Source: Actinoplanes subtropicus
Lineage (GTDB): Bacteria > Actinomycetota > Actinomycetes > Mycobacteriales > Micromonosporaceae
Reading direction: 5' to 3'
Assembly (NCBI RefSeq): GCF_000721705.1
Contig: NZ_JOJL01000002.1
Span: forward strand, 524,686-588,685
DNA: 64,000 nucleotides
In this document: positions 3,412-58,111 of the stretch, in pieces
Numbering within the stretch: the first letter of the stretch is position 1
Layout: every line of letters begins with the position of its first letter
The notes under the pieces: model-generated
Databases searched by the model: none
What the model was told of the DNA's origin: nothing
What the model saw: only the letters and a program-made list of their open reading frames with translations
Translations under genes and position numbers: made by a program

Positions 3412-3449
3412 GTCCTGCAGAGCAGTATTGCGGTCCGAATATTCGGGAC
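3412..3449. promoter_or_regulatory. IclR-type operator pair A (GTCCT-N7-AGGAC family)
   Basis: GTCCGAATATTCGGGAC at 3433-3449 is a 17-bp dyad of the GTCCN-N7-NGGAC type. A left half-site GTCCT begins exactly 21 bp upstream, at 3412. The pair lies 34 bp before the ATG of the broken SDR at 3483, so a regulated promoter has outlived the gene it served. It may now drive the hydrolase at 3674. Confidence 0.6.
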
Positions 3450-3482
3450 AACCTGTGGTGCCTGGCGAGGAGGTCATGCGCG

Positions 3483-3570
3483 ATGAGAGACGTTGCAGAC
3501 AAGGTCGCGGTCGTTACCGGAGCGGGCGCGGCATCGGTCTCGGGATTGCACGAGCGTTCGGACTGGTTGC
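3483..3570 (+). pseudogene. N-terminal remnant of a short-chain dehydrogenase, frameshifted
   Basis: After GAGGAGG (3467-3473) an ATG at 3483 starts MRDVADKVAVVTGAG, the classic Rossmann N-terminus of an SDR. One base is then missing, and the expected continuation GIGLGIARAFG appears in the next frame up to about 3570. SDR similarity ends there. The rest of the enzyme, with the Ser-Tyr-Lys active site, is absent. The following 100 bp to the hydrolase start are of unknown origin. Confidence 0.75.
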
Positions 3571-3673
3571 CGGAGATCGAGAGGTGGCCCGCGCCCCCCA
3601 CCACCGACTTGGCGCAATCCTCGACGGTCGCCGGCGAATCGGGGCTCCGTTGACGACATCAGGGCTGGACAAC

Positions 3674-4597
3674 GTGGGCGGACTTGACGAGAAGTTGTTT
3701 CAGGCCGCGGCGATCGATCCCGAAACAGCCGGCTTCAACCTGCAACTTCGCGCGCTGCTGAAGAGCAGTCCTGGCGGTGAGGCGGGCCCCGGCGGCCTTC
3801 CGATGCCTCCCGAGGAGCCTTCGGAGCGTGCACGCACCATCCTGATCACGGGACAAGGCGGTCACGAACTGGCTCTGCGGGTCATCGCTCCGGACCGCCC
3901 CGAGGGCGTCTACCTGAACTTCCACGGCGGCGGTTTCGTCAGTGGCAGCGCAACGCAGTCGGATCAGGAACTGGAGCGGATCGCACGGAACACAGACTTC
4001 GCCTGCATCGACGTGGACTACCGGCTGGCGCCCGAGCACCCTTACCCGGCGGCCTGGGACGACGCCGAAGCCGCGGCGATGTGGCTGATCGAAAATGCCC
4101 AGTCGGAGTTCGGAACCGATGCGCTCGCGATCGGAGGAGTGTCGGCGGGCGCGACACTCGCGGCCTCCGTCCTTGTCCGGCTACGCGAGCGGCGTGGCTC
4201 CACCGGGTTCCAGGCGGCGAACCTGGTCTTCGGCAATTTCGACCTCTCGATGACCCCGAGTCAAACGCTGCTCGGCGCCGACGCGGTACCAGTTTCGTTG
4301 GACGCCATCCGAGCGTGCACCGACGCGGTCGCGCCTGAGACCGAAAAACGCCAGGACCCGGATCTGTCGCCCCTGTACGCCGATCTGCGGGATCTCCCGC
4401 CGGCGCTGTTCACGGTCGGCACCCTGGATCCGTTCCTGGACGACACGTTGTTCATGCATGCCCGCTGGATCGCAGCCGGCAACCCGGCCGAGCTGGCGGT
4501 ATACCCCGGCGGCGGGCATGTTTTCACCGCATTCCCCATCAGCCTCGCGAATCAGGCGAACGACCGCATCGAAGCCTTTCTCCGCCGGATCGGGTAA
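3674..4597 (+). CDS. HSL-type alpha/beta-hydrolase (carboxylesterase family)
   Basis: I choose GTG at 3674 because a decayed paralog at 54667 begins at the equivalent GTG. The reading frame is also open further upstream, to 3428, but that part is a broken SDR in another frame. The protein has 307 residues. It shows the hormone-sensitive-lipase hallmarks: the oxyanion motif HGGGF near residue 85, the nucleophile elbow GVSAGA near 158, an acidic residue in the VGTLDPFLDD segment and a late catalytic His in GGGHVF. A soluble esterase acting on small acyl or aryl esters is the usual role. It lies downstream of operator pair A and close to aromatic-catabolism genes, which suggests ester hydrolysis of a plant phenolic, though this is inference. 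Confidence 0.88.
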   Translation: MGGLDEKLFQAAAIDPETAGFNLQLRALLKSSPGGEAGPGGLPMPPEEPSERARTILITGQGGHELALRVIAPDRPEGVYLNFHGGGFVSGSATQSDQELERIARNTDFACIDVDYRLAPEHPYPAAWDDAEAAAMWLIENAQSEFGTDALAIGGVSAGATLAASVLVRLRERRGSTGFQAANLVFGNFDLSMTPSQTLLGADAVPVSLDAIRACTDAVAPETEKRQDPDLSPLYADLRDLPPALFTVGTLDPFLDDTLFMHARWIAAGNPAELAVYPGGGHVFTAFPISLANQANDRIEAFLRRIG

Positions 4598-4689
4598 CCC
4601 GTATCGATTCTCGACACGGGGGACCGCAGCGGGCTGGTCGACGGAGTCGAGACCAAGCCGCCGCAGGCTGGCGCTGCACGGGTGATGCG

Positions 4690-5520: not shown

Positions 5521-5679
5521 GCGCACGCGGTCCGCACTGGAGTTGCTATCACGATATCCGGTCGTGAAGTCCCTTACCTGCTATGCGGGACACCTAACAG
5601 TTGGATTTACCCGACCCGATCCCCCGCTCGGCGGTGGAGGGCCCTTCAGATCTTGTCACCCCTACGGCTCCGCAGTAGT

Positions 5680-5717
5680 GTCCTGCTAGTAGAGACGTGA
5701 ATCCTATTTTACAGGAG
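5680..5717. promoter_or_regulatory. IclR-type operator pair B in front of Rieske operon 1
   Basis: GTCCT-GCTAGTA-GAGAC (5680-5696) and ATCCT-ATTTTAC-AGGAG (5701-5717) are two imperfect copies of the GTCCT-N7-AGGAC dyad, offset by exactly 21 bp. The AGGAG of the second copy is also the Shine-Dalgarno sequence for ATG 5723 (spacing 5), so a bound regulator would cover the start region and would be expected to repress. Confidence 0.65.
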
Positions 5718-5722
5718 CGAGC

Positions 5723-6931
5723 ATGTCCGATGTTTTCGTCAGCTCCGACCCTGGCACTGCGCCGCGCGAGCTCCGTGACGTGGTGACGGTCCGGGACAAG
5801 CTGACCCAGGGCTACCACGACGCGGTACTGGAGAAGGTCTTCCGGCCGTCCTGGTTCCTGATCGGCAACGCCAACGAGCTGCCGAAGCCGGGAAGCTTCT
5901 TCGTCCGCGATATCCCCACCTTCCGCACCTCTGTGCTGGTCAAGCGCGGCAAGGACGGGGTGATCCGGAGCTTCCACAACGTGTGCCGGCATCGCGGCAA
6001 GAAGGTCGTGCCCACCGAGTGCGGGTGGGCCGAAGGCACCTCAAGCTCGCACACCTGCTGGTTCCACGGCTGGTCCTACAGCGCCGACGGCTCGTTGCGG
6101 TCGGTTCCTGACGAGAATCAGTTTTTCAGCATGGACAAGGCGAAGAACGGGCTGGTCCCGGTACGGACCGAGGTGTGGGCGGGACTGATCTTCGTGTACT
6201 TCGGCGGCGAGGACGGGGTCGGGCTCACCGAGTGGCTGGGCGAACTCGCCGACGGATTCGAGGGCTACTACACCGAGATGGAGAAGATCGGCACCTTCTC
6301 CGCCGACGTCCGGGCCAACTGGAACATCGCGATGGACTCCTTCTCGGAGGGCTATCACACCATCTTCCTGCACCGGCGCACCCAGCCCAAGCTGGTCGGC
6401 AAGGACAACCCGATGCGCCATGCGCCCCTTATCGACGTCTACGACCGGCACGTCCGCGTCGGCACCCCGGCAAATTCCGAGTACCTGGGGCCGCCTGCCG
6501 AACGAGCCCTGTACGCGCATGGCCGCAAGCTCTCGCCCGCGGTGGAGACCGACTTCAGCCTGCTGCCGCCCGCGGTGAACCGGACGCGCTTTCAGCCGTG
6601 GTTCTTCGACATTGTCGGGCACTTCCCCAACGTCAGCATCCTCAACGGCCCGCACTGGTACAGCGTGGTCACCGTCTGGCCCATCGACCGGGAGAACACG
6701 CGGTTGCACTTCGATCTCTATGCCCGCAAGACCCGGCATGCGGGAGACCGGCTGGCCCAGGCCTACACGCGCGGGTTGCAGTACACCGTCGCCCGTGAGG
6801 ACCTGTCGGCCATGGAGGACGTACAGCGCGGCCTGGACTCGGGCGCCATCGACAGCATCAACCTCTCCCTGCAGGAGTTCAGCCTGCAGAACCGCTACGC
6901 CATCATCGACGAACTGATCGGAGCGCGGTAA
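5723..6931 (+). CDS. Rieske non-haem iron oxygenase, alpha subunit (operon 1)
   Basis: The product has 402 residues. Rieske [2Fe-2S] ligands are visible as C88-x-H90 and C112-x2-H115 (VCRHRGKKV, CWFHGWSY). The catalytic domain carries E209-x2-H212-x4-H217 (SEGYHTIFLH), so the residue bridging the two iron centres is Glu, as in carnitine oxygenase, not the usual Asp. It should hydroxylate a small organic substrate using electrons from a reductase that is not encoded here; no beta subunit is present either. The stop overlaps the start of the 115-aa gene (TAATG), so the two are probably co-translated. It is closely similar to the oxygenase at 58116. The operator pair at 5680-5717 controls it. 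The substrate is unknown; aromatic acid is a guess from context. Confidence 0.92.
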   Translation: MSDVFVSSDPGTAPRELRDVVTVRDKLTQGYHDAVLEKVFRPSWFLIGNANELPKPGSFFVRDIPTFRTSVLVKRGKDGVIRSFHNVCRHRGKKVVPTECGWAEGTSSSHTCWFHGWSYSADGSLRSVPDENQFFSMDKAKNGLVPVRTEVWAGLIFVYFGGEDGVGLTEWLGELADGFEGYYTEMEKIGTFSADVRANWNIAMDSFSEGYHTIFLHRRTQPKLVGKDNPMRHAPLIDVYDRHVRVGTPANSEYLGPPAERALYAHGRKLSPAVETDFSLLPPAVNRTRFQPWFFDIVGHFPNVSILNGPHWYSVVTVWPIDRENTRLHFDLYARKTRHAGDRLAQAYTRGLQYTVAREDLSAMEDVQRGLDSGAIDSINLSLQEFSLQNRYAIIDELIGAR

Positions 6932-7278: not shown

Positions 7279-7300
7279 CCAGCCGAAGTGATGTGACGTC

Positions 7301-8283: not shown

Positions 8284-8291
8284 CCTGCCGA

Positions 8292-22550: not shown

Positions 22551-23333
22551 TCAGCTGGCAACCATGGCCAGACGGTCACTGATCTCACCGGCGGTGGCCA
22601 GCAGCCGGGCCACTATCTCGGCCTCGGCGGCGGCGTCCACCCGCGACTCGAGCGCGACGACGCTGACGGCGGCGACCACCTGGCCGCGCTCATCGCGTAC
22701 CGGAGCGGCGATACCCACGACGTCCGGGTCCAGCTCGGCCCGGGTGATCGAGTAACCGGCCCGCCGGATCTCCTCCAGCCGCCGCATGACGGCGTCCACC
22801 TCGGTGAGCGTGGAGGAGGTGAACCGGCGCAGTTCGACCGCGTCCAGCAGCCGCCGGGCCTCCTCGGGTGGGCTCCAGGCGAGCAGCACCAACGCCGACG
22901 CGCCCGCGTTGATCGGCAGCGAGCTGCCGCGTTCGTAGGAGATCCGCACGGCCCGGATGTCCGCCTCGGCGCGGTCGACACACACCACCAGATCACCGGT
23001 GCGGCGGGTCAGCAGCACGGTCTCCCCGACCGCCTCGGCCAATGCCGTCATCTGCGGCATGGCCGCCTCGGAGAGACCATAGCTGCGCCGGGCGAGCCTG
23101 CCGAGCTCCAGCACGCCCAGGCCGAGCCGGTACCCGCTCTCGGGGGCTTCCTCCAGGAACCGGCTGGTCACCAGGCTCTGCAGGTATCGGTACGCGGTGG
23201 AACGGGCCACGCCGAGCCGCTCGGCTACGGCGTTGCCGGAGATGACCGGCTGGGTCTCGGTGAACATCATGAGGATGTCCAGCGCACGGTCCGCCGTCGA
23301 GTTGCGTTCGCGGTAACCGCTGGGCAGAGACAT
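22551..23333 (-). CDS. IclR-family regulator, last gene of the ring-processing operon
   Basis: The start is taken at ATG 23333 (MSLPSGYRERN), matching the start of the paralog at 54245; ATG 23345 is possible. The protein has 260 residues. The HTH (about 8-70) contains STADRALDILMMFTETQPVI and RLGVARSTAYRYLQSLV. The C-terminal GAF-like effector domain has RISYERGSSLPINAGASALV and ELDPDVVGIAAPVRDERGQV. It is about two-thirds identical by eye to the protein at 53457. It follows the FAH-family gene by 17 bp, so it is co-transcribed with the operon it probably controls through the 27639-27676 sites. The effector is probably a pathway aromatic acid. Confidence 0.93.
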   Translation of the reverse strand: MSLPSGYRERNSTADRALDILMMFTETQPVISGNAVAERLGVARSTAYRYLQSLVTSRFLEEAPESGYRLGLGVLELGRLARRSYGLSEAAMPQMTALAEAVGETVLLTRRTGDLVVCVDRAEADIRAVRISYERGSSLPINAGASALVLLAWSPPEEARRLLDAVELRRFTSSTLTEVDAVMRRLEEIRRAGYSITRAELDPDVVGIAAPVRDERGQVVAAVSVVALESRVDAAAEAEIVARLLATAGEISDRLAMVAS

Positions 23334-23350: not shown

Positions 23351-24184
23351 CTATCGGTCTTTGACCACGACGTTGCGTAGCTCGCCGATGCCTTCGACGG
23401 TGGTGACCAACTCCTGCCCGGGCTGCAGGAACACCTCGGGGTCTCGCCCGGCGCCGACGCCGCCCGGCGTGCCGGTGCAGATCAGATCGCCGGGCTGCAG
23501 GGTGATGATCCGGCTGACGTACGCGATGATGGCGGCCACGTCGAAGAGCAGGTCCGCTGTCGTGGACTTCTGCATGGTGCGGCCGTCGACGGCGCAGCTG
23601 ATGGCCAGACCGGCGCCACCGGCGGGCAGCTCGTCGGGGGTGACGAGGGCCGGCCCGACCGGCGTGGTGGCCTCGAAGGTCTTGCCGGAGAGGAACTCGC
23701 GGGTGCGGTGCTGCCAGTCGCGGACGGTCACGTCGTTGACCACGGTGTAGCCGGCGACGTGGTCGAGTGCGCGCTCGCGCGGCACGTGGCGGCCGGGCCG
23801 GCCGATCACCACCCCGAGCTCGGCCTCCCAGTCCAGCTGGTCGCTGACCGCGGGCGCGTGGATCGGGTCGCGGGCGCCGACGAGCGCGCCGTCGTACTTG
23901 GCGAACAGGGTCGGGTACTCGGGAGTGGGCCGGCCCATCTCGGCGATGTGGGTGGCGTAGTTCAAGCCCAGGCAGATGATCTTGTTGGGGTGGGGGACGA
24001 CGGGCGCGAGCGATGCGCCGGCGAGGGGTATCCGTTCGCCGGTGGCCGCGGCGGCCCGGGCCGGCCAGTCGTCGCCGGTGGTGAGCAAGGCAACCACGTC
24101 GGCGTGCGGTAGCAGCACGAGACCGTCGCCGTCCTGCCGGGCGGCGACGGTCCGGTTGCCGATCCGGACGGTGCTGAGCCTCAT
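23351..24184 (-). CDS. Fumarylacetoacetate hydrolase-family protein
   Basis: The product has 277 residues. A small N-terminal domain precedes the FAH fold, which begins at about 67 (NKIICLGLNYATHIAEMG). Metal-ligand motifs are visible: DWEAELGVVIG (E120, E122) and VVNDVTVRDWQHRT. LICTGTPGGVGAGR closes the active site. Relatives hydrolyse or isomerise C-C bonds in ring-cleavage products (acylpyruvases, 2-hydroxyhepta-2,4-dienedioate isomerase, 4-oxalocrotonate decarboxylase). Its start overlaps the flavin hydroxylase stop (ATGA). It likely acts after the VOC protein in the same operon, but the exact reaction cannot be read from sequence. Confidence 0.9.
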   Translation of the reverse strand: MRLSTVRIGNRTVAARQDGDGLVLLPHADVVALLTTGDDWPARAAAATGERIPLAGASLAPVVPHPNKIICLGLNYATHIAEMGRPTPEYPTLFAKYDGALVGARDPIHAPAVSDQLDWEAELGVVIGRPGRHVPRERALDHVAGYTVVNDVTVRDWQHRTREFLSGKTFEATTPVGPALVTPDELPAGGAGLAISCAVDGRTMQKSTTADLLFDVAAIIAYVSRIITLQPGDLICTGTPGGVGAGRDPEVFLQPGQELVTTVEGIGELRNVVVKDR

Positions 24185-25794
24185 GGGCGTACTCCTTCGG
24201 TTGACGGTGCGGTGGTGTCCGCCGCCCGGACCGCGCGCAGGGCCGCGCCGATCCGCTCGGCCTGCGCGGGCGGGAAAACCGCCGCGACCAGGCGGTCGGG
24301 ACGAACGAGGAGGAACTGGCCGGCCAGATCGCCGAAGAGCGCCTGCAGCCGCCCGTCGGCGTCCGCGACACCGGCGCGGCCGGCTCGCCGCCGGGGAGCA
24401 CGGTCGTCGAGGGCAACGTCGACCTCGACGACCTCGGGCAGCCCGGCCAGCCCGGCGGCGAGCCAGCCGTCGTCGGCCACATCCACGCCGAGCAGGCTCC
24501 ACCGCGCGCCGAGCACGTCGTCCAGGCGGGCCGGCGTGAGTTCCGGCCCGAACAGCACCCGAGGCTGCGGCAGCAGCGTGCCGACCAGGAGATGGGCCCG
24601 GCCATCCAGCCGCACCACCGCGCCGGAGCTGATCGGGGTGCGTGGCCGGAAGCGCATCTCGGTGAAGTAGCGGCGCCCGCGCCGGGTACGCATCGCGCCG
24701 CGGACGGCCAGATCGCGCAGCCACGCCCGGCGCCGGTCGGTGGTCATGACGATGCGGCCGAGACGCACCGACAAGTCGATCATGGCGCGGGCGTGCGGGC
24801 GGCGCTCGGCGTCGTAGGTGTCCAGCAGTGTGTCGCCGGCCCGGCCGTCGAGCGCCTCGGCCAGCTTCCAGCTCAGGTTGGCCGCGTCCCGCAGGCCGGA
24901 GTTGAGGCCCTGCCCGGCGAACGGCGGCATCATGTGCGCGGCGTCGCCGAGCAGGAAGCAGCGCCGGTCGCGCAGCCGGTCGGCGAGCAGCGCGTGGAAC
25001 CGGTACGCGACGGCGCGCTCGACCTGGCCCGGCGAGATGTCCCGATAGCGCAGCAGCAGCTCGCGCAGCAACTCGAACGGTGGTCGCTCCCCGGGCTCGC
25101 ACTCGCCGGGCCGCAGCAGGAACTCGTAGCGGCACCGGCGGTCGCGGCCGGGCACGACCACGTGCGGCCGGCGCGGATCGCCGTAATGCATCCCGAACCG
25201 CTGGTCGTGCGGATCCTCAACGGTGTCGGCGACCAGCCACACCTCGGGGAAGCTGCGTCCCTGCATCGGAATGCCGAGCAATTCGCGGACCGTGCTGCGA
25301 CCGCCGTCGCAACCGAGCACGTACGCCACATCGACCGTCTCGGGTCGCTCGTCGCCGGCGCGCAGCTCCACCCGTACCCGATCGGGTTTCTGCTCGAGTC
25401 CCGTCAGACGTGTCCCGAAACGCTGAACGACCCCGGCGAAGCGGTGCAACTCGGCGTGCAGCACCCGCTCGAGGTCGGGCTGCGCGAACGGGTTCTTGAA
25501 CGGGTGACCGAAGCGGTGGTCGCCAGCGCCCCGGGCATGCACGAGCGGGCGGCCGCCGATGCCGAAGTACCGGGTGCCGGTGCCCGGGACGATGATCGGG
25601 TAGATCGCCTTGTCGAGGCCGGCGAGTTGAAGGATGCGCAGGGACTCGTCGTCGAGGCTGATCGCCTTGGCCTCGTCGCTGGTGGTGGCGTTCTGCTCCA
25701 CCAGCAGCACCTGGACGCCCATCGAACCCAGCAGGGCCGCGGCGGTGAGGCCGGTGGGACCGGCGCCGACCACCAGTACCGGAAGGTGCGCCAC
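24181..25794 (-). CDS. FAD-dependent aromatic hydroxylase (MhpA/PheA-like)
   Basis: GTG 25794 lies two bases after the VOC stop and gives 537 residues. The FAD Rossmann motif is VVGAGPTGLTAAALLG. The segment AKAISLDDESLRILQLAGLD is typical of 3-(3-hydroxyphenyl)propionate hydroxylase-like enzymes. The DG motif (VLGCDGGRSTVRELLGIP) and the GD motif (LLGDAAHMMPPFAGQGLNSG) are intact, as is a C-terminal thioredoxin-like domain. It should use NAD(P)H and oxygen to hydroxylate a phenolic ring ortho to the OH, giving a catechol for ring cleavage. The gene is in an operon with a VOC and an FAH-family gene, so the three probably form a hydroxylation and meta-cleavage branch. Confidence 0.92.
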   Translation of the reverse strand: MAHLPVLVVGAGPTGLTAAALLGSMGVQVLLVEQNATTSDEAKAISLDDESLRILQLAGLDKAIYPIIVPGTGTRYFGIGGRPLVHARGAGDHRFGHPFKNPFAQPDLERVLHAELHRFAGVVQRFGTRLTGLEQKPDRVRVELRAGDERPETVDVAYVLGCDGGRSTVRELLGIPMQGRSFPEVWLVADTVEDPHDQRFGMHYGDPRRPHVVVPGRDRRCRYEFLLRPGECEPGERPPFELLRELLLRYRDISPGQVERAVAYRFHALLADRLRDRRCFLLGDAAHMMPPFAGQGLNSGLRDAANLSWKLAEALDGRAGDTLLDTYDAERRPHARAMIDLSVRLGRIVMTTDRRRAWLRDLAVRGAMRTRRGRRYFTEMRFRPRTPISSGAVVRLDGRAHLLVGTLLPQPRVLFGPELTPARLDDVLGARWSLLGVDVADDGWLAAGLAGLPEVVEVDVALDDRAPRRRAGRAGVADADGRLQALFGDLAGQFLLVRPDRLVAAVFPPAQAERIGAALRAVRAADTTAPSTEGVRP

Positions 25795-25795
25795 G

Positions 25796-26290
25796 CTACT
25801 GGACCGGCTGGTAGGCCGGGCCGCCGTCGTCCAGCAGCCGTTCGGCCTCGGCAAGCACGGCGGCCGGGTCCTGGTCGAGGTTGATGGTCTTGCGGAACGG
25901 CTGCCGGATGTCACGCTCCACGCGCAGGTAGACCTCGTTGCGGTTGCCCTCCGGGTCGAAGAAGTAGATACCGATCGCGTTGCCGTGGGTGACCTCCTGC
26001 TGAACGGCGATGCCTTCGGCGCGGAACCGGCGGTGGTACTCGAGGATGGTCTCGATCGAGTCGACCCGCCAGGAGACCTGGTGGGTGAGCTTGGACCCCG
26101 GCGGCGCGGTGCGGCCCTTCTGCAGCACGAACTCGTGGTGCTCCTGCTCCGGGCACGAGGAGAAGAAGACGATGCCGAGTTCCTCGTCCTCGTCGGTGAC
26201 GGTGAGTCCCAGCACCCGCTCGTAGAAGTCGCGCATCTTCGCCAGGTCGGTGACCCAGAATCCGGTGTGGCCCAGTCCGGTGATTGCCAT
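25796..26290 (-). CDS. VOC-fold protein, possible extradiol ring-cleavage dioxygenase
   Basis: The product has 164 residues, with one pair of beta-alpha-beta-beta-beta modules. Candidate metal ligands are in the standard VOC places: H8 (GHTGFWV), H70 (THQVSWRV) and E119 (NRNEVYL). FFDPEGNRNEVYL is the typical extradiol or glyoxalase signature. The C-terminal 35 residues are an extra helical tail. Its place between an NTF2-like protein and a flavin hydroxylase favours a catechol-type dioxygenase role over glyoxalase. AGGAG lies about 7 bp before the ATG. Confidence 0.88.
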   Translation of the reverse strand: MAITGLGHTGFWVTDLAKMRDFYERVLGLTVTDEDEELGIVFFSSCPEQEHHEFVLQKGRTAPPGSKLTHQVSWRVDSIETILEYHRRFRAEGIAVQQEVTHGNAIGIYFFDPEGNRNEVYLRVERDIRQPFRKTINLDQDPAAVLAEAERLLDDGGPAYQPVQ

Positions 26291-26305: not shown

Positions 26306-26875
26306 TCAGTCGATCAGGGGGTTGAGGATCTCGGCGGCCATGGCCGCGGTGACGACCTGGTCGGGGCGCAGCTTCTCGATGGTCCGGCTGGCGCTGTCCT
26401 CGTAGATGTGCTCGCCGAGGAGCAGGCACCGGTCGTCGTAGGGCCAGAAGGAGGCCACATAGTGGGTCAGCAGGTACCACGCGTCGGGATCATCGATGTC
26501 CTCGCCCTGGGCGGCCAGGACGTGCCCGGGGAGGTAGTTGCCGAACAGCGACTCGATCGCCAGGCCCCAGTCCGCGACCGCGATCCGGTCCTCGATCGGA
26601 CCGAAGACGTTGAGCCCCTGCTCGGCGATCTCGCCGTAGAACGCGCCGATCTCGTCGAGCCCGGTCAGGTGCGTCGACTTGCCGTTCTCGTTGATCCGGT
26701 AGAACGGCCGAGCCACCACCATCGACGGCGTGAGGATCTCTCGCCAGCGGCCGGCGACCTCCAGCAGGGCGTGCCGGCGGAAGTTGGTGAGGATCGCCCG
26801 GTGCCGCGGGTTGTCGGTGCGGGCCAGCAGCTCATCGGGGGCTTTCACCACATCTCGTACGTCAAATGTGCGCAC
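26306..26875 (-). CDS. SnoaL/NTF2-like protein of the catabolic operon
   Basis: GTG 26875 overlaps the end of the SDR gene and follows GGAG. The product has 189 residues with an alpha+beta composition and no membrane segment. The middle resembles NTF2/SnoaL cone folds (STHLTGLDEIGAFYGEIAEQ, FGPIEDRIAVADWGLAIESL), seen in small isomerases, lyases and in hydroxylase beta subunits. Many conserved His, Asp and Tyr residues line the predicted cavity (LLTHYVASFWPYDDRCLLLG). Its substrate is unknown. In this operon it could be an isomerase or dehydratase for a pathway intermediate. Confidence 0.75.
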   Translation of the reverse strand: MRTFDVRDVVKAPDELLARTDNPRHRAILTNFRRHALLEVAGRWREILTPSMVVARPFYRINENGKSTHLTGLDEIGAFYGEIAEQGLNVFGPIEDRIAVADWGLAIESLFGNYLPGHVLAAQGEDIDDPDAWYLLTHYVASFWPYDDRCLLLGEHIYEDSASRTIEKLRPDQVVTAAMAAEILNPLID

Positions 26876-27623
26876 TCATGCTCCTTGAAGCGACCGGATC
26901 GACGATGTCGAGACCGCCGTCGACCACCAGGACGGCGCCGGTCAGGTAGCTGGCCTCGGCGCTGAGGAGGAAGACCACGGCGGAGGCCAACTCGTCCGGT
27001 GTGCCCATCCGGCCCAGCGGGCTGCGGGCGTGCAGGGTTTCCGGATCAGGTTGGGACGCTTGCATCGGCGTATCGATGAGGCCGGGCGCGACCACGTTGA
27101 CCCGCACGCCGTTCGCGGCGCCGGCGAGCGCGGCGCTGCGGGCCAGCCCGATCGCGGCGTGCTTGGACGCGACGTACGGCGCGATGGTCGCGCTCGGCCG
27201 GAGGCCGGCCAGCGAGGACGTGACGACGACGGACCCGCCGCCGCCCTGGGCGGCGAACTGGGCCAGCGCGGCACGCAGGCCGAGGAAGACGCTGCGCTGG
27301 TTGACCTCGACGGTGTGGTCGTAGTCGGCGACGTCGAGGTCGGCGAAGCTCGCATGCGGGCCGGAGACGCCGGCGTTGAGGTGCACGCAGTCGACCCGGC
27401 CGAAACGATCGACCGCGGCGGCCATGAACGCCTCGACGCCCTCCGGGCGGGAGACGTCCGCAGTCACCGCCAACGTCTCGCCCGGCAGCCGGGCCGGCGC
27501 GATGAACTCGCGATCCACCAGGACCACGCGCATGCCCTCCACGCTCAGACGGCGGGCGACGGCCGCACCGATCCCGCTGCCGGCGCCGGTGACCACTCCC
27601 ACCCCGCCGGAAAGTCCCCGCAT
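26862..27623 (-). CDS. Short-chain dehydrogenase/reductase, first gene of the leftward catabolic operon
   Basis: ATG 27623 follows AAGGAGGG with 5 bp spacing and gives 253 residues; a start eight codons earlier lacks a ribosome site. It has the cofactor motif TGAGSGIG, the NAG motif (LNAGVSG), catalytic Ser in VTSSLAG and YVASK. The end carries the usual PG-motif and LTGAVLVVDGG. Likely an NAD(P)-dependent alcohol, diol or ketone oxidoreductase on a pathway intermediate. Operator pair C lies immediately upstream, next to the ribosome site. Confidence 0.92.
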   Translation of the reverse strand: MRGLSGGVGVVTGAGSGIGAAVARRLSVEGMRVVLVDREFIAPARLPGETLAVTADVSRPEGVEAFMAAAVDRFGRVDCVHLNAGVSGPHASFADLDVADYDHTVEVNQRSVFLGLRAALAQFAAQGGGGSVVVTSSLAGLRPSATIAPYVASKHAAIGLARSAALAGAANGVRVNVVAPGLIDTPMQASQPDPETLHARSPLGRMGTPDELASAVVFLLSAEASYLTGAVLVVDGGLDIVDPVASRSMSAHI

Positions 27624-27638: not shown

Positions 27639-27676
27639 GTCCTGCAAACTAGGACTAGCGTCCTGTAAAAGGGGAC
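27639..27676. promoter_or_regulatory. IclR-type operator pair C between two divergent catabolic operons
   Basis: GTCCT-GCAAACT-AGGAC (27639-27655) is a perfect copy of the dyad, and GTCCT-GTAAAAG-GGGAC (27660-27676) has one mismatch. They are offset by exactly 21 bp. The pair lies 15 bp from the SDR start on the left and 55 bp from the importer start on the right, so one regulator can switch both operons. Confidence 0.75.
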
Positions 27677-27731
27677 TGTACGCTCGCCGAAACCTACCGT
27701 CAACGTGACGTCAAACATCGCGGGAGTACCC

Positions 27732-32236: not shown

Positions 32237-33030
32237 ACGCCGAGCTCGCCGGGAAGGTCGCGCTGGTCACCGGCGGCGGCAGCGGCATCGGTGCGGCCAC
32301 CGCCGCTCTGCTCCGCCGCCTCGGGGCCGAGGTGGTCGTCCTCGGCCCGGACGCCGCGGCGCTGCGGGACATCTGCTCCGCCACCGGCGCGGTGGCGGTG
32401 ACCGGCGACGCCGCCCAGCCGGCCGACTGCGACGCCGCGGTCGCCGTCGCCCTCCAGCGCTGGGGACGGCTCGACACGCTGATCGGCTGTGCCGGCGTGG
32501 GAACCTTCGGCACCGTGCTCGACACCGGCGAGACGGACTGGCACCGCTCGCTGCGGGCCAACCTGGACACCGCGTACGTCGCCGCGCGCAGCTGCCTGCC
32601 ACAGCTGATCCGCACCACCGGGACCATCGTGCTGGTCTCCTCACTCGCCGGGCGGCTGGGGGCGCCAGGCTCGGCCGCATATGTCACGGCGAAACACGCG
32701 GTGATCGGCCTGGTCCGGTCGCTGGCCGCCGACTTCGGCCCGCACGGGGTACGCGCCAACGCCGTCTGCCCAGCGTTGGTGCGCACGCCGATGGCCGACG
32801 CCGTCCTGGACACCCTCGGCCCCGGCCATAGCTACGAGAACGCCGCCGCGCTCTACCCGCTGCGCCGCCCCGCCGAACCCGACCAGATCGCCGAGGTCAT
32901 CGCCTTCCTCGCCGGGCCACGCTCGGCGGTCGTCACCGGCGCCGTACTGATGGCCGACTGTGGCGTCTCCGCCGTCGACATGAGCCTTACCGCATTGACC
33001 GACTCTGCCACCGATGGGAAACAGCCATGA
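32233..33030 (+). CDS. Short-chain dehydrogenase/reductase in the uptake operon
   Basis: The product has 265 residues. Cofactor motif TGGGSGIG, then the active site Ser in VSSLAG and YVTAKHA (Tyr-x3-Lys), and the LFGPH/GVRANAVCPA segment of classical SDRs. The C-terminus TGAVLMADCGVSAVDM replaces the more usual VVDGG. It lies between the importer and the aldehyde dehydrogenase, overlapping both neighbours by 4 bp. Likely role: NAD(P)-dependent oxidation of an alcohol or diol. The first 150 bp are duplicated as a broken copy at 63208. Confidence 0.92.
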   Translation: MNAELAGKVALVTGGGSGIGAATAALLRRLGAEVVVLGPDAAALRDICSATGAVAVTGDAAQPADCDAAVAVALQRWGRLDTLIGCAGVGTFGTVLDTGETDWHRSLRANLDTAYVAARSCLPQLIRTTGTIVLVSSLAGRLGAPGSAAYVTAKHAVIGLVRSLAADFGPHGVRANAVCPALVRTPMADAVLDTLGPGHSYENAAALYPLRRPAEPDQIAEVIAFLAGPRSAVVTGAVLMADCGVSAVDMSLTALTDSATDGKQP

Positions 33031-34490
33031 GCTTGCTCGACAGCGACACGTGGACGAACCGGATCTTCACCGGGGAGTGGGCCCAAGGCTCCGGCGAACC
33101 CCGCGACGTCGTCGAACCGGCCACCGGCGCCGTACTCGGCCGGATCGGCACGGCCACGCCGGACGACGTGCACAAGGGCGCCGAGCGCGCGGCACAGGCG
33201 CAACGGGACTGGGCGGCACTGCCGTACGACCGGCGGGCCGCCGTCCTGCGCCGTGCCGCCGGCCTGTTCGAGCGGCACCAGACCGAGATCGAGAACTGGT
33301 TGATGCGCGAATCCGGCGCGATCCGGCCGTTCGCGCAGTTGCAGGTGGTCAACGGGGGAGTCGAGGAGTGCTACGAGGCCGCCGCGCTCGCCGCGGCGCC
33401 GTACGGGGAGGTGCTCCGCTCACAGCAGCACCGCTTCTCGTTCGCCCGCCGCCTTCCCGTCGGTGTCGTCGGGGTCGTCGCCCCGTTCAATGTACCGATC
33501 ATCCTCGCCATGCGGGCCGTGGCCCCGGCGCTGGCACTGGGCAACGCGGTGATCCTCAAGCCCGACCCGCGCACCGCGGTCTCCGGCGGCGTGGCCATCG
33601 CCCGCGTCTTCGAGGAGGCCGGCCTGCCCGCCGGCCTGCTGCACGTGCTGCCGGGGGGCGCCGAGGTGGGCGCCGCGGTGGTGGCCGACCCGCTCATCCC
33701 GGTCATCGCGTTCACCGGCTCCACCGAGGGCGGCCGGGCCATCGCGACCGCGGCGGCCGCCCGGCTCAAACGGGTCCACCTCGAGCTGGGCGGCAACTCC
33801 GCGCTCGTGATCATGGATGATGCCGACCTGGAGAGGGCCGTCTCGGCCGGCGCCTGGGGATCGTTCGTGCACGCCGGGCAGATCTGCATGGCCAGCAGCC
33901 GCCACCTGGTGCACGCCTCGATCGCCGACGACTACGCCGAACTGCTCGCCGGGCACGCCGACCGGCTGACGGTCGGCGATCCCACCGGGGAGAACGTCGC
34001 GCTCGGGCCGGTCATCGACCGTGGGCAGCGTGACCGCATCCACCGCCTGGTCACCGACACCGTCGACGCCGGGGCCCGGCTGGCCGCGGGCGGCACCTAC
34101 GACGATCTGTTCTACCGCCCCACCGTGCTCGCCGACGTGCCGGTCACCGCCCGCGCCTACGCCGAGGAGATCTTCGGCCCGGTCGCTCCGGTGACGACGT
34201 TCCGCAACCTCGACGAGGCCGCCCGCCTGGCCGCCGGGACGCCCTACGGGCTGTCGCTGGGCATCCTGACCCGGGATCCGATGAAAGGACTCGCGCTGGC
34301 CGAGCGGATCCCCAGCGGCCTGGTCCACATCAACGACCAGACCGTCAACGACGAACCCGCCGCCCCGTTCGGCGGCGTCGGCGATTCCGGCAACGGCGCC
34401 CGGCACGGCGGCAATGCGGCCAACCTGGAGGCGTTCACCGAGCAGCAATGGGTGACCCTGCGCGGCGACCTGCCCACGTACCCGTTCTGA
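33027..34490 (+). CDS. Aldehyde dehydrogenase (benzaldehyde/vanillin-dehydrogenase-like)
   Basis: The product has 487 residues, a full-length ALDH. Catalytic C287 in HAGQICMASS and general base E253 in LELGGNSAL are intact; NAD contact motifs PFNVPI and FTGSTEGG are present. The Q-I-C-M-A-S variant and the short N-terminus resemble benzaldehyde and vanillin dehydrogenases. It overlaps the SDR by 4 bp and precedes the carotenoid-oxygenase-family gene by 18 bp. The natural reading is that the oxygenase produces an aromatic aldehyde and this enzyme oxidises it to the acid. Confidence 0.92.
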   Translation: MSLLDSDTWTNRIFTGEWAQGSGEPRDVVEPATGAVLGRIGTATPDDVHKGAERAAQAQRDWAALPYDRRAAVLRRAAGLFERHQTEIENWLMRESGAIRPFAQLQVVNGGVEECYEAAALAAAPYGEVLRSQQHRFSFARRLPVGVVGVVAPFNVPIILAMRAVAPALALGNAVILKPDPRTAVSGGVAIARVFEEAGLPAGLLHVLPGGAEVGAAVVADPLIPVIAFTGSTEGGRAIATAAAARLKRVHLELGGNSALVIMDDADLERAVSAGAWGSFVHAGQICMASSRHLVHASIADDYAELLAGHADRLTVGDPTGENVALGPVIDRGQRDRIHRLVTDTVDAGARLAAGGTYDDLFYRPTVLADVPVTARAYAEEIFGPVAPVTTFRNLDEAARLAAGTPYGLSLGILTRDPMKGLALAERIPSGLVHINDQTVNDEPAAPFGGVGDSGNGARHGGNAANLEAFTEQQWVTLRGDLPTYPF

Positions 34491-34508
34491 CACGTCGAGG
34501 AGAAACTG

Positions 34509-35993
34509 ATGATCAACAGCTATCCCGCCGGGGCGCCGGATGCGCGTCCGTGGCCTACGGCGAACAAATTCCTCAACGGGCCGTTCGCGCCCTGGGCGGC
34601 CGAGGACGACGCGTACGACCTGGACGTGGCCGGACAGATCCCGGCCGACCTGGCCGGTGCGCTGTTCCGGGTCTCCGCCAACCCGAGGTTCCAGCCCCGC
34701 AACACCGACCGCTACCACTGGTGGGAGGGCGACGGCATGGTCTGCGGCGTCTACCTGCGCGACGGCAAGGCCGCGTACCGCAGCCGCTGGGTCGAGACGG
34801 CGTCGATGCGGGTCGAGGTGGGGGCCGGGGAGGCGATCTACAGCGGGTTCGTCAACGGCGGCACGGCGGGCCGGCTGCCCGAGGGCGCCCCGCCGGCGAA
34901 GAACGTCGCCAACACCAACGTGGGTCTGTTCGACGACCACCTGATCGTCTACTACGAGGGCGGCCTGCCCCACCACCTGCACCCGGAGACCTTGGAAACC
35001 CTGGGCACGTACAATTTCCACGGCGGCATCGACGTGCTGTGCACCGCCCACTTCAAGATCGACCCCGACTCCGGTGACATGCTGTTCTTCGCGGCGACCG
35101 GACCGGTCGTCACCTGGTACCGGGCCGACGCGAAGACCGGACACGTCATCGACTCGCACGCCGTCGACATCGGCGTACCCGTGCTCATGCACGACTTCGC
35201 GATGAGCGAGACCTACGCGATCTTCTTCGTCACACCGGCGCAGTTCCGCCTCGATCTGGTCGGCCAGGGCCGCCCCGGCGTGGTCTGGGACGAGAGCGCC
35301 ACCCCCGACGGCGTACGCATCGTCCTGCTGGACCGCCGCACCCACCAGGTCACCTGGCACGACGTCGGCGGACAGTTCGCCAACACACACTTCTTCAACG
35401 CCTACGAGCAGGCCGGCGAATTGATCATCGACGGCCATCGGATCACCCGTCTCGGCACCCCCACCGGCCGGCTCGACGCGCCGCTCGGCTCGCACGAGTG
35501 GTTCCCGCCCGCGCTTCCCTACCGGTGGCGCATCGACCTGCGTACCGGCCGGGCGAGCGAGGAACCGGTCAGCGGCATCGCCGGCGAGTTCCCCCGGATC
35601 AACGACGCGTACACCGGCCGCCGGCACCGCTACGGTTACTTCGTCACCACCCGGGGCCTGGCCGCCGACACCATGACCGACGGCCTGGCCCGGCACGACT
35701 ACCTGCTGGACACGACGACTGTCGTGGAGGGCCCGGATGGGCTGACCAATCCCAGCGAACCGGTCTTCGTCGCTCGAGCGGCCGCCCGCGCCGAGGAGGA
35801 CGGCTACCTGCTCACCATCTGGTGGAACCGGGCGACCGACCGCAGCGAACTGCTCATCCACGACGCCGCCGACCTGCGCCGGGAACCACTGGCCCGGGTC
35901 AAGCTGCCCGCCCGGATCCCGTTCGGTTTCCACGGCAACTGGGCCGACCGCGCTGCCTTGGAGGCTGCCGTCGCGGCACACCGCCCGGCGTGA
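34509..35993 (+). CDS. Carotenoid-oxygenase-family enzyme (lignostilbene-dioxygenase-like)
   Basis: The product has 494 residues. All four iron-binding histidines of the seven-bladed propeller are visible: H181 (TAHFKIDP), H228 (MHDFAM), H294 (THFFNAYE) and H475 (FHGNWA). The N-terminus FLNGPFAPWAAEDDAYDLDV and YHWWEGDGMV are family signatures. Relatives cleave C=C bonds in apocarotenoids or stilbenes with oxygen, giving two aldehydes. No carotenoid biosynthesis gene is present here, and an aromatic aldehyde dehydrogenase is adjacent. Stilbene- or isoeugenol-type cleavage is therefore more likely. It ends the rightward operon starting at 27732. Its paralog is at 56418. Confidence 0.92.
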   Translation: MINSYPAGAPDARPWPTANKFLNGPFAPWAAEDDAYDLDVAGQIPADLAGALFRVSANPRFQPRNTDRYHWWEGDGMVCGVYLRDGKAAYRSRWVETASMRVEVGAGEAIYSGFVNGGTAGRLPEGAPPAKNVANTNVGLFDDHLIVYYEGGLPHHLHPETLETLGTYNFHGGIDVLCTAHFKIDPDSGDMLFFAATGPVVTWYRADAKTGHVIDSHAVDIGVPVLMHDFAMSETYAIFFVTPAQFRLDLVGQGRPGVVWDESATPDGVRIVLLDRRTHQVTWHDVGGQFANTHFFNAYEQAGELIIDGHRITRLGTPTGRLDAPLGSHEWFPPALPYRWRIDLRTGRASEEPVSGIAGEFPRINDAYTGRRHRYGYFVTTRGLAADTMTDGLARHDYLLDTTTVVEGPDGLTNPSEPVFVARAAARAEEDGYLLTIWWNRATDRSELLIHDAADLRREPLARVKLPARIPFGFHGNWADRAALEAAVAAHRPA

Positions 35994-49133: not shown

Positions 49134-49136
49134 AAT

Positions 49137-53456: not shown

Positions 53457-54245
53457 TCAGCCCGTGACGCTGATCATCCGGCTGCTGATTTCCTGTGCCG
53501 TCTCCCGGACCTTGCGGGCGAACTCCGCCTCGGCCTCGGGGAACACGCGGGAGGCCAGGGCCGCGATACTCACCGCCGCGATCACCTGTTGCCGCTCGTC
53601 GCGGACGGGGGCGGCGATGCCCAACACTTCGGGGTCGAGCTCGCCGCGGGTGACGGAGTAGCCGGCACGCCGGATGTGGTCGAGCCGCTGCATGAGGATG
53701 TCGACGTTCGTGAGGGTGGCGGAGGTGAATTGGTGCAGGTCCGCGGATTCCAGTAGTTGCCGGGCCTGCTCCTCGGGCAGCCATGCCAGCAGGACGAGAG
53801 CCGACGCGCCGGCGTTCAGGGGGAGTGTGCTGCCCCGCTCGTAGGAGATGCGCACGGCACGGGTTCCCGCTTCGGCCAGGTCGACGCATACGACCAGCTC
53901 TCCGGTTCGCCTGGTGAGCAGGACCGTCTCATGCACGTCCGCGGCAAGCGCCGTCATCGCCGGGAGCGCGATCTCGGAAAGCCCATAGCTCCGTCGTGCC
54001 AGCCGGGCGATCTCCATGACGCGTAGCCCGAGACGGAATCCTCCACCCGGTGCTTCCTCCAGAAAGCGGCTGCTCACGAGGCTCTGTAGGTAGCGGTAGG
54101 CCGTCGAGCGCGCTACACCGAGTCGCTCGGCGACCGCGCTGCCGGAAACGACGAGCTGCGCGTCGGTGAACATGAGAAGGATGTCCAGCGCCCGGTCGGC
54201 CGTGGAGTTGCGCTCGCGATAACTGGGGGACGTAGCTCCTGACAT
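53457..54245 (-). CDS. IclR-family regulator of the second catabolic block
   Basis: The product has 262 residues from ATG 54245. HTH (about 8-72): STADRALDILLMFTDAQLVV and RLGVARSTAYRYLQSLVSSR. The recognition segment ARSTAYRYLQSLV is identical to that of the IclR at 22551 and of the relic at 5104, which suggests a shared DNA site. Effector domain: VRISYERGSTLPLNAGASAL and ELDPEVLGIAAPVRDERQQV. The nearest candidate sites are the GTCCT-N7-AGGAC dyads at 54504-54541, 57887 and 58074. The effector is unknown. Confidence 0.93.
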   Translation of the reverse strand: MSGATSPSYRERNSTADRALDILLMFTDAQLVVSGSAVAERLGVARSTAYRYLQSLVSSRFLEEAPGGGFRLGLRVMEIARLARRSYGLSEIALPAMTALAADVHETVLLTRRTGELVVCVDLAEAGTRAVRISYERGSTLPLNAGASALVLLAWLPEEQARQLLESADLHQFTSATLTNVDILMQRLDHIRRAGYSVTRGELDPEVLGIAAPVRDERQQVIAAVSIAALASRVFPEAEAEFARKVRETAQEISSRMISVTG

Positions 54246-54503
54246 GTGAGACACCGTACCGGGTGGCGGCCGTCTTGGGCACGGAGGCGCCTTGGATGAC
54301 GAATTCGTGGCGCTCCTGCGCGCGAGGCGATGCCAGGCTCCGCGGTCACGGTCAAGCCTGCCCGGTGCTCCGGCTCCATCGCGGCCGCCGTGCGCCGTAA
54401 CGGCTTCTTCACGCCGCGGCATCAAACCTCACTTGCCGGGCTGACGGATCCGTTCGGCGCGGGGAGACGACACTTGACGAGGCGGCGGCCGCCGGTGATT
54501 ATT

Positions 54504-54541
54504 GTTTCGTATATCGAGACAGTGGTCCTGAATATCAGGAC
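54504..54541. promoter_or_regulatory. IclR-type operator pair D
   Basis: GTTTC-GTATATC-GAGAC (54504-54520, weak) and GTCCT-GAATATC-AGGAC (54525-54541, perfect; outer bases extend it to GGTCCTGAATATCAGGACC) are offset by 21 bp. Downstream lie a 44-codon frame (ATG 54543, starting MMKLGFFGA) that I cannot assign, and the broken hydrolase at 54667. Confidence 0.7.
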
Positions 54542-54666
54542 CATGATGAAGCTCGGCTTCTTTGGCGCGTCGCGTCGGCATCTGGCACCGCGCGGGCGCC
54601 TCGGACTTCTCGGCAGTCACCAGCGTTGGGAGGCCGCGATCACATTGTCCGGGACGGATCATGTGA

Positions 54667-54960: not shown

Positions 54961-55096
54961 GGTCCGCGTGACCACGTTCACCCGACGTGGTAGAGAGCTG
55001 GCTGCTCGGCGACGACGAGATCCGTACCTGACGGGTGACGGTTCGCACGCACGACATGCGCGCCCCGCTGCCCGCGGTACCTCGCCGTCTCTCGTG

Positions 55097-56197: not shown

Positions 56198-56417
56198 GCC
56201 GGGCCTCCAGATGGCGAACGAAGGCCAGGGACCGGCAAGGGCGCGGACCCGGGCCACGGTGAGGAGATGTCTCGGGGTCGGCGGCGTGCCGCATGCCGGC
56301 AAGCCGCGGGTAGGGAGATCGGTGCTGCCGGGTTCCCGCGGACGAGTGGCCGAGCGTGGGAGCGCGCTGGTCGACGGGGTGCTCCGGCACCCCGTCGACC
56401 AAGGGATTGTCGAGGAC

Positions 56418-57857
56418 TCAGGCGCCGCGGACCGCGGCGTCGAGTTCGGCTGCGTCCGACCAGTTGCCGTGGAAGCCCATGGGTACCCGGTGGTTGAGCT
56501 TGATCCGGGCGATCGGCGTGCCCGCGAAGTCCTGGACCTCCTGAACGATGACCTCGCTGCGGTCGGTGGCGGGGTCCCACCAGATCGACAGCAGCCAGCC
56601 GTCGTCCTCGGCCGTGGCTCCGGGGCGGGGCACGAACACCGGTTCGCCGGGAGAGGTCAGTACACCGTCGAGTGTCTGCATCGACGTCTTGCCCGTCTGG
56701 TAGTCGTGCTTTGCCAGGCCGTCGGTGAACCAGTCGCCGGCTCCGCGCGTCGTCGTGTAGTAGCCGTACCGATGGGACAGGCCGGTTCGCTGGTCGTTGA
56801 TCCGAGGGAACTCTCCCTGGATGTCAGTGACCTCACTGTCCGTCGTCTTGCCGGTGGCGAGGTCGAGTTCCCAGCGCCAGGGTGTGGTGACGACCTTCTT
56901 GAACCACCAGTTCCAGTCCCCGCCCGGCGGCGGTGACTCCAGCTCCTTCAGGGTGGGGCCGAACTTGTCGACCCGGTGCCCGTCGACGACGATCTTCGTG
57001 CCGTCCTGGTAGGCGTTGAGGAAGTGGGTGATGGCGAACGCGTCGGGGGCGTCGAACCATGTCACCTTGCCCGTCCTGCGATGCAGGACAGCCCACCGGC
57101 ACGTCTCCACCGTCTCCGGCTCCCAGATCGTCGACGGCCGGCCGGAGAAGATGTTCTCCATGCGGACCATCGACGGGTTGACCAGGAAGAGCGCGTAGTC
57201 GGTGGTGACGACGTAGTCATGGGTGAAGGTGGGGACCCCCAGGTCGATCGAGTGGCGGTCGAGGACCTTTCCGTGGCGGTCGGCTCGATACCACGTGACC
57301 GTGCCGTCGATGTTGCCGAAGGTGAGAAAGTCCCCGTTCGTCGGATCGATCTTGTGGTGGGCGGTCAGCGGCCCGGCGAGTCCGCCGCCGAAGTCGTACA
57401 GCTGGCTGACCGTCTCAAGGGTGTCCGGTCGCAGGTCGCGCGGAAGGCCGCCCTCGCAGAAGACCAGCAGGCGGTTGTCGTAGAGCTGCACGTTCGTGTT
57501 GCCGGGGTTCTTCGGGAACTTGCCGGGTGGCAAAGGGGTGGTCCGGCCGTTCATGAAACCGCCGTAGATCGCCCGGCCCAGTTCCATCTCGTCCTTCAGG
57601 CCGTCGGTCTCCACGTAGCGGTTGCGGTAGGTCGCCCGGCCGTCGCGCAGGAACAGGGCTTGGATCATGCCGTCCCCGTCGAACCAGTGATACCGGCTCG
57701 GGTCCTCCGGGCGGTAGAGCTGGCTGACGCTGGTCCGGTACAGAGCACCGTTCAGCCCGTCCGGGAGCCGGCCCTCTATCTCCAGGTCGAACGCCTCGCC
57801 CTGCTCGCGCCAGGGTGCGTACGGCCCGTTGAGGAACATGTTACTGGGGTCCCACAT
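56418..57857 (-). CDS. Carotenoid-oxygenase-family enzyme, second copy
   Basis: The product has 479 residues, with AAGGAGGG six bases before ATG 57857. Four iron-binding histidines: H167 (TAHHKIDP), H213 (FTHDYVV), H278 (THFLNAYQ) and H463 (FHGNWS). The N-terminus MFLNGPYAPWREQGEAFDLE and YHWFDGDGMI match the paralog at 34509, so the two form a subfamily. Expected to cleave a C=C bond of an apocarotenoid- or stilbene-like substrate. A perfect operator dyad lies 29 bp upstream of its start, and the divergent neighbour is Rieske operon 2. Different substrates or one substrate's two isomers could explain two copies. Confidence 0.92.
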   Translation of the reverse strand: MWDPSNMFLNGPYAPWREQGEAFDLEIEGRLPDGLNGALYRTSVSQLYRPEDPSRYHWFDGDGMIQALFLRDGRATYRNRYVETDGLKDEMELGRAIYGGFMNGRTTPLPPGKFPKNPGNTNVQLYDNRLLVFCEGGLPRDLRPDTLETVSQLYDFGGGLAGPLTAHHKIDPTNGDFLTFGNIDGTVTWYRADRHGKVLDRHSIDLGVPTFTHDYVVTTDYALFLVNPSMVRMENIFSGRPSTIWEPETVETCRWAVLHRRTGKVTWFDAPDAFAITHFLNAYQDGTKIVVDGHRVDKFGPTLKELESPPPGGDWNWWFKKVVTTPWRWELDLATGKTTDSEVTDIQGEFPRINDQRTGLSHRYGYYTTTRGAGDWFTDGLAKHDYQTGKTSMQTLDGVLTSPGEPVFVPRPGATAEDDGWLLSIWWDPATDRSEVIVQEVQDFAGTPIARIKLNHRVPMGFHGNWSDAAELDAAVRGA

Positions 57858-57886
57858 GGACGCCCTCCTTGCGGTTGACCTATCGT

Positions 57887-57903
57887 GTCCTAGTAATCAG
57901 GAC
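57887..57903. promoter_or_regulatory. IclR-type operator E1, in front of the second cleavage oxygenase
   Basis: GTCCT-AGTAATC-AGGAC is a perfect copy of the 17-bp dyad, 29 bp from the start of the leftward gene. A weaker right half with AT-rich core (GATATTC-AGGAT) ends at 57925. The rest of the 258-bp divergent region shows no gene. Confidence 0.7.
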
Positions 57904-58073
57904 ATCGTAATGCGATATTCAGGATATGGTAACGCTGCCTTCGGAAAAGTACAGCCGCTTCCGGGGTGGTCGAGCATGGCATCGGCCTGGGCCAAGTGCG
58001 GAAATGGGCCAACTATGCGCAGCTGACTGCCACTTTGGCCGTCAGCTTGCGACGGGTCTAATCGTAACGTACT

Positions 58074-58111
58074 GTCCCTTATTACAGGACTGCCGTCCTA
58101 ACTTATGGAGG
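58074..58111. promoter_or_regulatory. IclR-type operator pair E2, in front of Rieske operon 2
   Basis: GTCCC-TTATTAC-AGGAC (58074-58090, one mismatch) is followed exactly 21 bp later by a left half GTCCT (58095-58099). The right half of that second unit falls on GGAGG (58107-58111), the ribosome site of GTG 58116. This is the same arrangement as in front of Rieske operon 1. Confidence 0.7.

Follow-up and report, generated by a model that had tools for sequence, protein, structure and literature searches.

Dyads paired at 21 bp as candidate operators of an IclR subfamily in an aromatic catabolic island of Actinoplanes subtropicus

We analyzed a 64-kb stretch of the Actinoplanes subtropicus genome (contig NZ_JOJL01000002.1, positions 524,686 to 588,685; hereafter the window), in which a first-pass annotation had described a 17-bp dyad, GTCCT-N7-AGGAC, doubled at exactly 21 bp at promoters of catabolic genes. 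The analysis confirmed this observation: the doubled dyad is real. Judging from sequence comparisons, the pairs are very probably operators of one IclR subfamily, represented in the window by two paralogs with the same recognition helix, which would repress an aromatic catabolic island. This reading builds on the pairs, their spacing, their co-occurrence with this IclR and their position against promoter-like boxes, all of which are observed.

The doubled dyad in the window and in the genome

The window contains five pairs at this spacing (3412, 5680, 27639, 54504, and 58074), exactly where the annotation had placed them, with 4, 4, 1, 5, and 5 mismatches, respectively, to the 20 fixed bases of a pair. 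Perfect dyads are present at 27639, 54525, and 57887, again as described, and the proviso that a scan by eye might have missed copies was borne out by a further perfect dyad at 57073, in coding sequence, and by a sixth pair outside the window. The fuller consensus of the unit is GTCCTG-(A/T-rich 5)-CAGGAC, with A/T-rich inner bases.

Chance levels were estimated from 200 runs of a first-order Markov simulation. The four perfect units compare with 0.065 expected (maximum 1), in keeping with the claim that ten fixed bases should rarely recur by chance. Pairs at 21 bp were likewise in excess, with five at up to five mismatches against 0.325 in simulation (maximum 3) and three at up to four mismatches against 0.02 (maximum 1). 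At up to five mismatches, the 102 other spacings (17 to 119) average 0.92 pairs against five at spacing 21; spacing alone is nevertheless weak evidence at this loose stringency, because at least spacing 26 also has five pairs. At up to four mismatches, three pairs lie at spacing 21 and every other spacing has at most one. The copies with one or two mismatches listed in the annotation do occur at their coordinates, but their number is that expected by chance (32 in the window against 31.9), and several of these single copies are therefore meaningless on their own.

When predicted gene starts are used, the pairs are intergenic and adjoin catabolic, uptake, or broken genes, as had been proposed; the longest mechanical open reading frames (ORFs) overlap two of them. 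They occupy promoter DNA of an esterase, of two Rieske oxygenases, of divergent predicted operons for a short-chain dehydrogenase/reductase (SDR) and an ATP-binding cassette (ABC) transporter, and of an esterase remnant. The perfect dyad at 57073-57089 is probably coding and a doubtful operator: it lies within the RPE65 coding frame and has six mismatches as a 21-bp pair. It is identical in an 83%-identical RPE65 paralog (C2:523056-523072) and absent from a third copy, which could reflect coding coincidence or an internal site.

The window forms the last 64 kb of a 589-kb contig (C2) in a genome of 11.26 Mb, 215 contigs, and 68.8% G+C. A whole-genome check for even spread, as suggested with the annotation, found perfect dyads to be clustered: six of the eight copies in 11.26 Mb fall within one 60-kb island (C2:523056-582588) that overlaps the window (binomial 6e-13), two of these six being one coding stretch in two RPE65 paralogs. 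The remaining copies, C1:396585 and C22:104131, gave only single units in a matrix scan of the surrounding stretches. The sixth pair, at C2:523873, falls shortly before the window starts and precedes another RPE65-type gene. A second suggested check, a whole-genome scan for loose 21-bp pairs (at most three mismatches of 16), found no enrichment (132 against 170 in a reversed control) and was uninformative. A model built from all sites returned six places in the genome, which are the six candidate operators it was trained on and nothing else. A model built only from sites of other genomes also gave six places in 11.26 Mb at E ≤ 10, four of which, including the top three, are island operators (the other two are C2:353351 and C17:226743); it is not fully independent, because its training sites were picked with the own-genome matrix.

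Co-occurrence with a rare IclR subfamily

The first-pass annotation had named two intact IclR genes with an identical recognition segment as candidate binders. The segment, 17 residues long, matches exactly between the two paralogs, iclR22 and iclR53, which are 73% identical overall and occupy the only two places in the genome that match at E ≤ 1e-40. Both proteins have the HTH_IclR and IclR_C domains and the length of about 250 residues that define the family (about 260 residues each from the predicted starts). Of the 69 HTH_IclR matches in the genome, 30 loci were compared, among which the best other match to the segment reaches 12 of 17 residues; the count is rough, since several of these loci yielded out-of-frame sequence. 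The subfamily is rare: including this genome, it was found in 4 of 300 genomes of the family, 6 of 397 in an order sample, 2 of 67 in the genus, and 1 of 396 in a phylum sample, that one being this genome; in the family of genome G410, 17 of 346 genomes carry it.

Comparisons in both directions support the two genes as candidate binders. Starting from the motif alone, a scan of 84,980 species' genomes yielded 58 loci with a pair, three of which (one in Nocardia vulneris and two in N. brasiliensis records) immediately adjoin an iclR gene that shares 58-59% identity with the window paralogs; at two of these three, a piece homologous to the window's flavin adenine dinucleotide (FAD)-dependent hydroxylase is present as well. 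In the opposite direction, starting from IclR, a search with a matrix whose training sites came from this genome alone showed a 21-bp pair scoring 20 bits or more in all eight ortholog regions (24-120 kb). Such a pair ranked first in seven; in G410, the top pair has spacing 26 and falls between neighbouring pairs. A repeat test, planned before its regions were scanned, covered 15 regions from 13 further genomes with 16 iclR genes and admitted spacings of 17-60, as against 17-44 in the first eight regions. Fourteen of the 15 contain 21-bp pairs that reach 20 bits, at distances of 24 bp to 18.8 kb from the iclR match, and 31 of the 51 pairs found across all spacings lie at 21 bp, with six at 20 bp. 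Overall, a 21-bp pair is thus present in 22 of 23 ortholog regions. In the same regions, 18 of 20 permuted matrices gave no pair at 21 bp, one gave one, and one gave two; 100 kb of this genome outside the island contained no 21-bp pair in the same scan.

Several motif-first loci have features of their own. Thirteen Prevotella-type loci (L013, L015, L017, L021, L026, L031, L033, L044, L050, L052, L065, L067, and L069) carry GTCCC-N7-GGGAC pairs 21 bp apart, nearly all with a 4-base linker of A/T only; these pairs, which lack the window iclR, are possibly a repeat element or the operator of another regulator. On a Planctomycetota contig (L027:2122-2285), several GTCC-N9-GGAC units lie 21 bp apart, some of them consecutively. 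The 21-bp pairs of two Nocardiopsis species (L018:1469 and L070:7415) are almost the same sequence in reverse-complement orientation, and neither 8-kb locus contains a window homolog. Matches of the own-genome model R3 in G090 and G111 had no window homolog in their 3-kb loci and were left as chance.

Island genes, promoter-like boxes, and the iclR start codon

The operators and genes of the island within the window are as follows.

3412..3449, plus strand: operator pair (units 3412-3428 and 3433-3449) in the esterase promoter; TTGACG, N19, and a -10-like TACTCT that ends at the operator
3476..4597, plus strand: alpha/beta hydrolase (Abhydrolase_3 esterase; Pfam 9.6e-49 on ORF 3428-4597), predicted ATG at 3476
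5680..5717, plus strand: operator pair (units 5680-5696 and 5701-5717); TTGTCA-N17-TAGTGT, with the -10 ending at operator base 2
5723..6931, plus strand: Rieske ring-hydroxylating oxygenase, 71% identical to the Rieske protein at 58116
22551..23333, minus strand: IclR-family regulator, paralog 22 (iclR22; IclR_C 1.6e-37, HTH_IclR 4.4e-12)
23351..24187, minus strand: FAA hydrolase family protein (Pfam 2.7e-69)
24181..25914, minus strand: FAD-dependent hydroxylase (FAD_binding_3 5.3e-69)
25796..26290, minus strand: glyoxalase/extradiol-dioxygenase-fold protein (Pfam 1.6e-17)
26862..27623, minus strand: SDR oxidoreductase, first in the predicted leftward operon (Pfam 1.8e-55); predicted start codon 15 nt from the operator
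27639..27676, no strand assigned: best operator pair, between the leftward SDR and rightward ABC-aldehyde dehydrogenase (ALDH)-RPE65 operons; leftward boxes TTGACG-N17-TACAGT, ending at operator base 2
27705..29210, plus strand: fused branched-chain-type ABC ATPase, heading the predicted rightward operon
29224..35993, plus strand: rest of that operon, with a substrate-binding protein (29224-30405), permease, SDR (32233-33030), ALDH (33027-34490), and RPE65 (34509-35993)
53457..54245, minus strand: IclR-family regulator, paralog 53 (iclR53)
54236..54252, no strand assigned: single unit on the iclR53 start codon (ATG 54243-54245), 12.6 bits; -10-like TACGGT 7 nt upstream
54504..54541, plus strand: operator pair with a perfect second unit, before the esterase remnant and also 258 bp upstream of iclR53
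56418..57857, minus strand: RPE65-family (carotenoid/lignostilbene-type) cleavage dioxygenase
57887..57903, minus strand: single perfect unit in the RPE65 promoter, abutted by TTACCA-N17-TACGAT
58074..58111, plus strand: operator pair before the Rieske gene at 58116
58116..59348, plus strand: Rieske ring-hydroxylating oxygenase

From their order and spacing, the leftward genes (SDR, a 189-residue protein without assignment, glyoxalase-fold protein, FAD hydroxylase, FAA hydrolase, and iclR22) and the rightward genes probably form operons. The esterase, the two Rieske oxygenases, and two further RPE65 genes have predicted promoters of their own. Two operators precede broken genes: the well-kept pair at 54504 is followed by an esterase remnant (matching the esterase gene at 73.5% over 272 bp), and a decayed pair at C2:524047 (L010:19362-19399) by a Rieske remnant. 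Parts of the gene set recur in other genomes: FAD hydroxylase homologs were found in all eight first and in 12 of the 15 later iclR regions; G031, G1263, and G1252 have RPE65 homologs (46-48%) at most about 7 kb from operators; and the relative G031 has an operator of the 27639 type at the same site. The island genes would suit a pathway that cleaves an aromatic, perhaps stilbene-like, compound and degrades its ring. The window also contains two SbtR-like TetR regulators (1561-2241 and 9520-10197), and upstream of it (L010:11945-15055) lies a third, different IclR gene, followed by ferredoxin-reductase-like and P450 genes.

At five of seven island sites, -35-like and -10-like boxes stand 17-19 bp apart, the -10 box running up to operator base 0 to +2. 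The predicted -10 at C2:523873 ends eight bases before the operator; at 54504, no -35/-10 combination passed the filter, and a lone TANNNT abuts the operator. Over all genomes, 9 of 40 flanks (20 pairs) have a TANNNT whose last base falls at operator base 0 to +2, compared with five occurrences in total in 16 equal-width control windows, and TTG-type -35-like boxes lie 24-34 nt upstream in 7 of 44 flanks, compared with five over five control windows, four of these in the adjoining window; both counts take related genomes and both sides of a pair as independent, and only the 44 flanks include w57887 and L010:19362. At the two Rieske promoters, the right half-site of the second unit departs from the dyad where it is placed as a Shine-Dalgarno sequence (CAGGAG ending at 5717 and GGAGG ending at 58111). 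The start of the operators at -10-like boxes suggests repression by occlusion.

In iclR53 and 14 further orthologs (15 of 26 examined), the start codon of the gene is the exact centre of a unit scoring 9 bits or more; other unit offsets within 40 bases of the start occur at most twice each. In 23 of 26 orthologs (24 of 27 genes, one being a non-orthologous IclR in G410), a TANNNT precedes the start by 6-7 nt. Among in-frame ATG and GTG codons, those with an upstream -10-like box were chosen first, so the method itself favours a leaderless reading. The count rests on 27 genes found by helix match, two of which are near-identical N. brasiliensis records, and misses three of 29 orthologs (G1189, G1263, and the second copy of G1252) that failed a filter; G1263 and G1252 have a 19.2-bit start-codon-type unit beside iclR outside this count. 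A unit centred on the start codon suggests a leaderless, self-repressed iclR, and iclR53 looks like a leaderless gene in which dyad and start site coincide. Self-regulation is marked by a site at the promoter of the regulator gene itself; iclR53 and the 14 orthologs have such a site at the predicted promoter, and none lies at the start of iclR22, which would be transcribed from 27639 as part of the leftward operon. We give even chances to a more specific and unreported arrangement, an IclR subfamily with its own start codon at the operator centre (GTCCYGC-ATG-TCAGGAC) on a leaderless promoter, in which initiator codon, transcription start, and dyad would be one sequence, and two paralogs with one recognition helix would share the paired code of a growing island. 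At the Nocardia loci L039, L048, and L053, a conserved TTCCAGACTGGAA palindrome lies between the operator pair and the iclR start, about 17-29 bases upstream.

Proposed mechanism, alternatives, and known systems

In the proposed mechanism, each 17-bp dyad would take one IclR dimer, and dyads 21 bp, or two turns, apart would place two dimers on one helix face, probably as a tetramer; it is the spacing that points to such a TtgV-like tetramer on DNA. At most island sites, the first unit would cover the -10 end and the expected transcription start, with the second unit downstream, and IclR most likely represses by blocking RNA polymerase. It would release DNA on binding an aromatic pathway compound. 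The start-codon unit probably lets iclR53 limit its own leaderless message. The regulon would be a single catabolic island, its substrate an aromatic that is perhaps of stilbene or phenylpropanoid type.

Several results weigh against this model. Most motif-first loci (55 of 58, of which 13 are Prevotella-type) lack such an iclR gene in the stretch examined (up to 8 kb), G1154b, among the 15 repeat regions, has no 21-bp pair reaching 20 bits, and some pairs are as far as 18.8 kb from iclR. Searched against whole genomes, model R3 recovered the operator at E ≤ 1 in only four of the eight genomes that carry the iclR; among 12 genomes with no listed match to it, two gave a single place each. Whole-genome model searches score 150 first-look candidates each and may miss weak sites. 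The start of iclR22 has no unit (-9.4 bits), 11 of 20 pairs have no TANNNT abutting the operator, and the promoters and leaderless starts are sequence predictions.

Among the alternatives, chance in palindrome-rich, high-GC DNA is exceedingly improbable as the source of the pairs and copies: single copies with up to two mismatches do occur at chance level, but the pairs and perfect copies exceed the simulations, and permuted matrices fail in the same ortholog regions. The pairs might also be repeat copies spread by gene-module duplication and non-functional as binding sites, since island genes are indeed duplicated (RPE65 at 77% and 48%, Rieske at 71%, and the esterase remnant). This is very unlikely, because pairs are found again in genomes with regulators of 53-75% identity, the 21-bp spacing is kept while inner bases differ, and flanks, compared by eye, differ between genera. 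We find it similarly hard to credit that another island regulator, such as one of the SbtR-like TetR proteins, binds the pairs. Both TetR genes sit in the window, and TetR operators are dyads as well, but the 11 and 15 comparison regions contained no TetR homolog that cleared the tblastn filter (E 1e-20, 38% identity), whereas iclR is common to all of them; it is so by selection, and the three Nocardia loci were chosen for their motif without regard to iclR.

The same operators could also serve an IclR activator or dual regulator whose inducer-bound form helps RNA polymerase. Such regulators exist in the IclR family (PMC8222616), which speaks against simple repression, and GenR, listed in the same survey, has a similar 5-7(5)-5 dyad. 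We nevertheless consider activation unlikely, as the operator begins at the -10-like box and not upstream of the -35 at five of seven island sites, and a -10-like box stands at the operator in 9 of 20 pairs over all genomes. Repression by the IclR paralogs is thus the reading we prefer.

The main text of one survey describes tandem IclR sites as palindromes with 18-22 nt between centres in 94 orthologous groups, with tetramer binding; it also reports that site centres peak again between -3 and +1 relative to the start codon, that many of the regulons concern aromatic compounds, and that self-regulation occurs (PMC8222616, Suvorova and Gelfand 2021). The pairs described here, with two palindromes 21 bp apart, fall within that range, and because tandem sites of this kind are already described there, the paired layout extends known IclR rules and does not change them. 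Compared with the group 1 consensus of the survey (GKTYCRYW3-4RYGRAMC), symmetry, length, and A/T centre agree, whereas positions 3 and 5 of the half-site GKTYCR differ. The half-site of GTCCTG-N5-CAGGAC was not found in the literature searched, including the main-text motifs of PMC8222616, whose supplementary group tables may list it.

Individual regulators show partial likeness. GenR of Corynebacterium glutamicum (ATTCC-N7(5)-GGAAT; PMC8222616, Table 1) is likewise an IclR protein with a 5-7(5)-5 dyad and acts on aromatic genes (3-hydroxybenzoate and gentisate), but has a different half-site. HutR of Corynebacterium resistens (GTCTGWWATWCCAGAC) and PobR (TTGTCCGATSATCGGACAR) share GTC(T/C) in the half-sites and an A/T-rich centre with the units here; HutR differs in serving histidine use and PobR in having an additional third half-site box (PMC8222616). 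PheR of Sphingobium is an IclR-family repressor with a 44-bp footprint from -21 to +23 relative to the start site, about the span of one pair here, although its sequence is different and the passages describing it contain no 21-bp doubled dyad (PMC13273656). GylR of Streptomyces clavuligerus is described as an IclR-family repressor of its own gene and one operon, but with an 18-bp site, glycerol genes, and a dimer in solution (PMC9732521).

Taken together, these results assign a likely regulator and operator code to a rare, scattered island with Rieske oxygenases, stilbene-cleavage-type dioxygenases, and a ring-hydroxylation operon. The assignment predicts which promoters should respond together, which would be of use in identifying the substrate and constructing an inducible sensor; with the start-codon unit, the coupling of a repressor to a leaderless gene could be tested in a simple setting.

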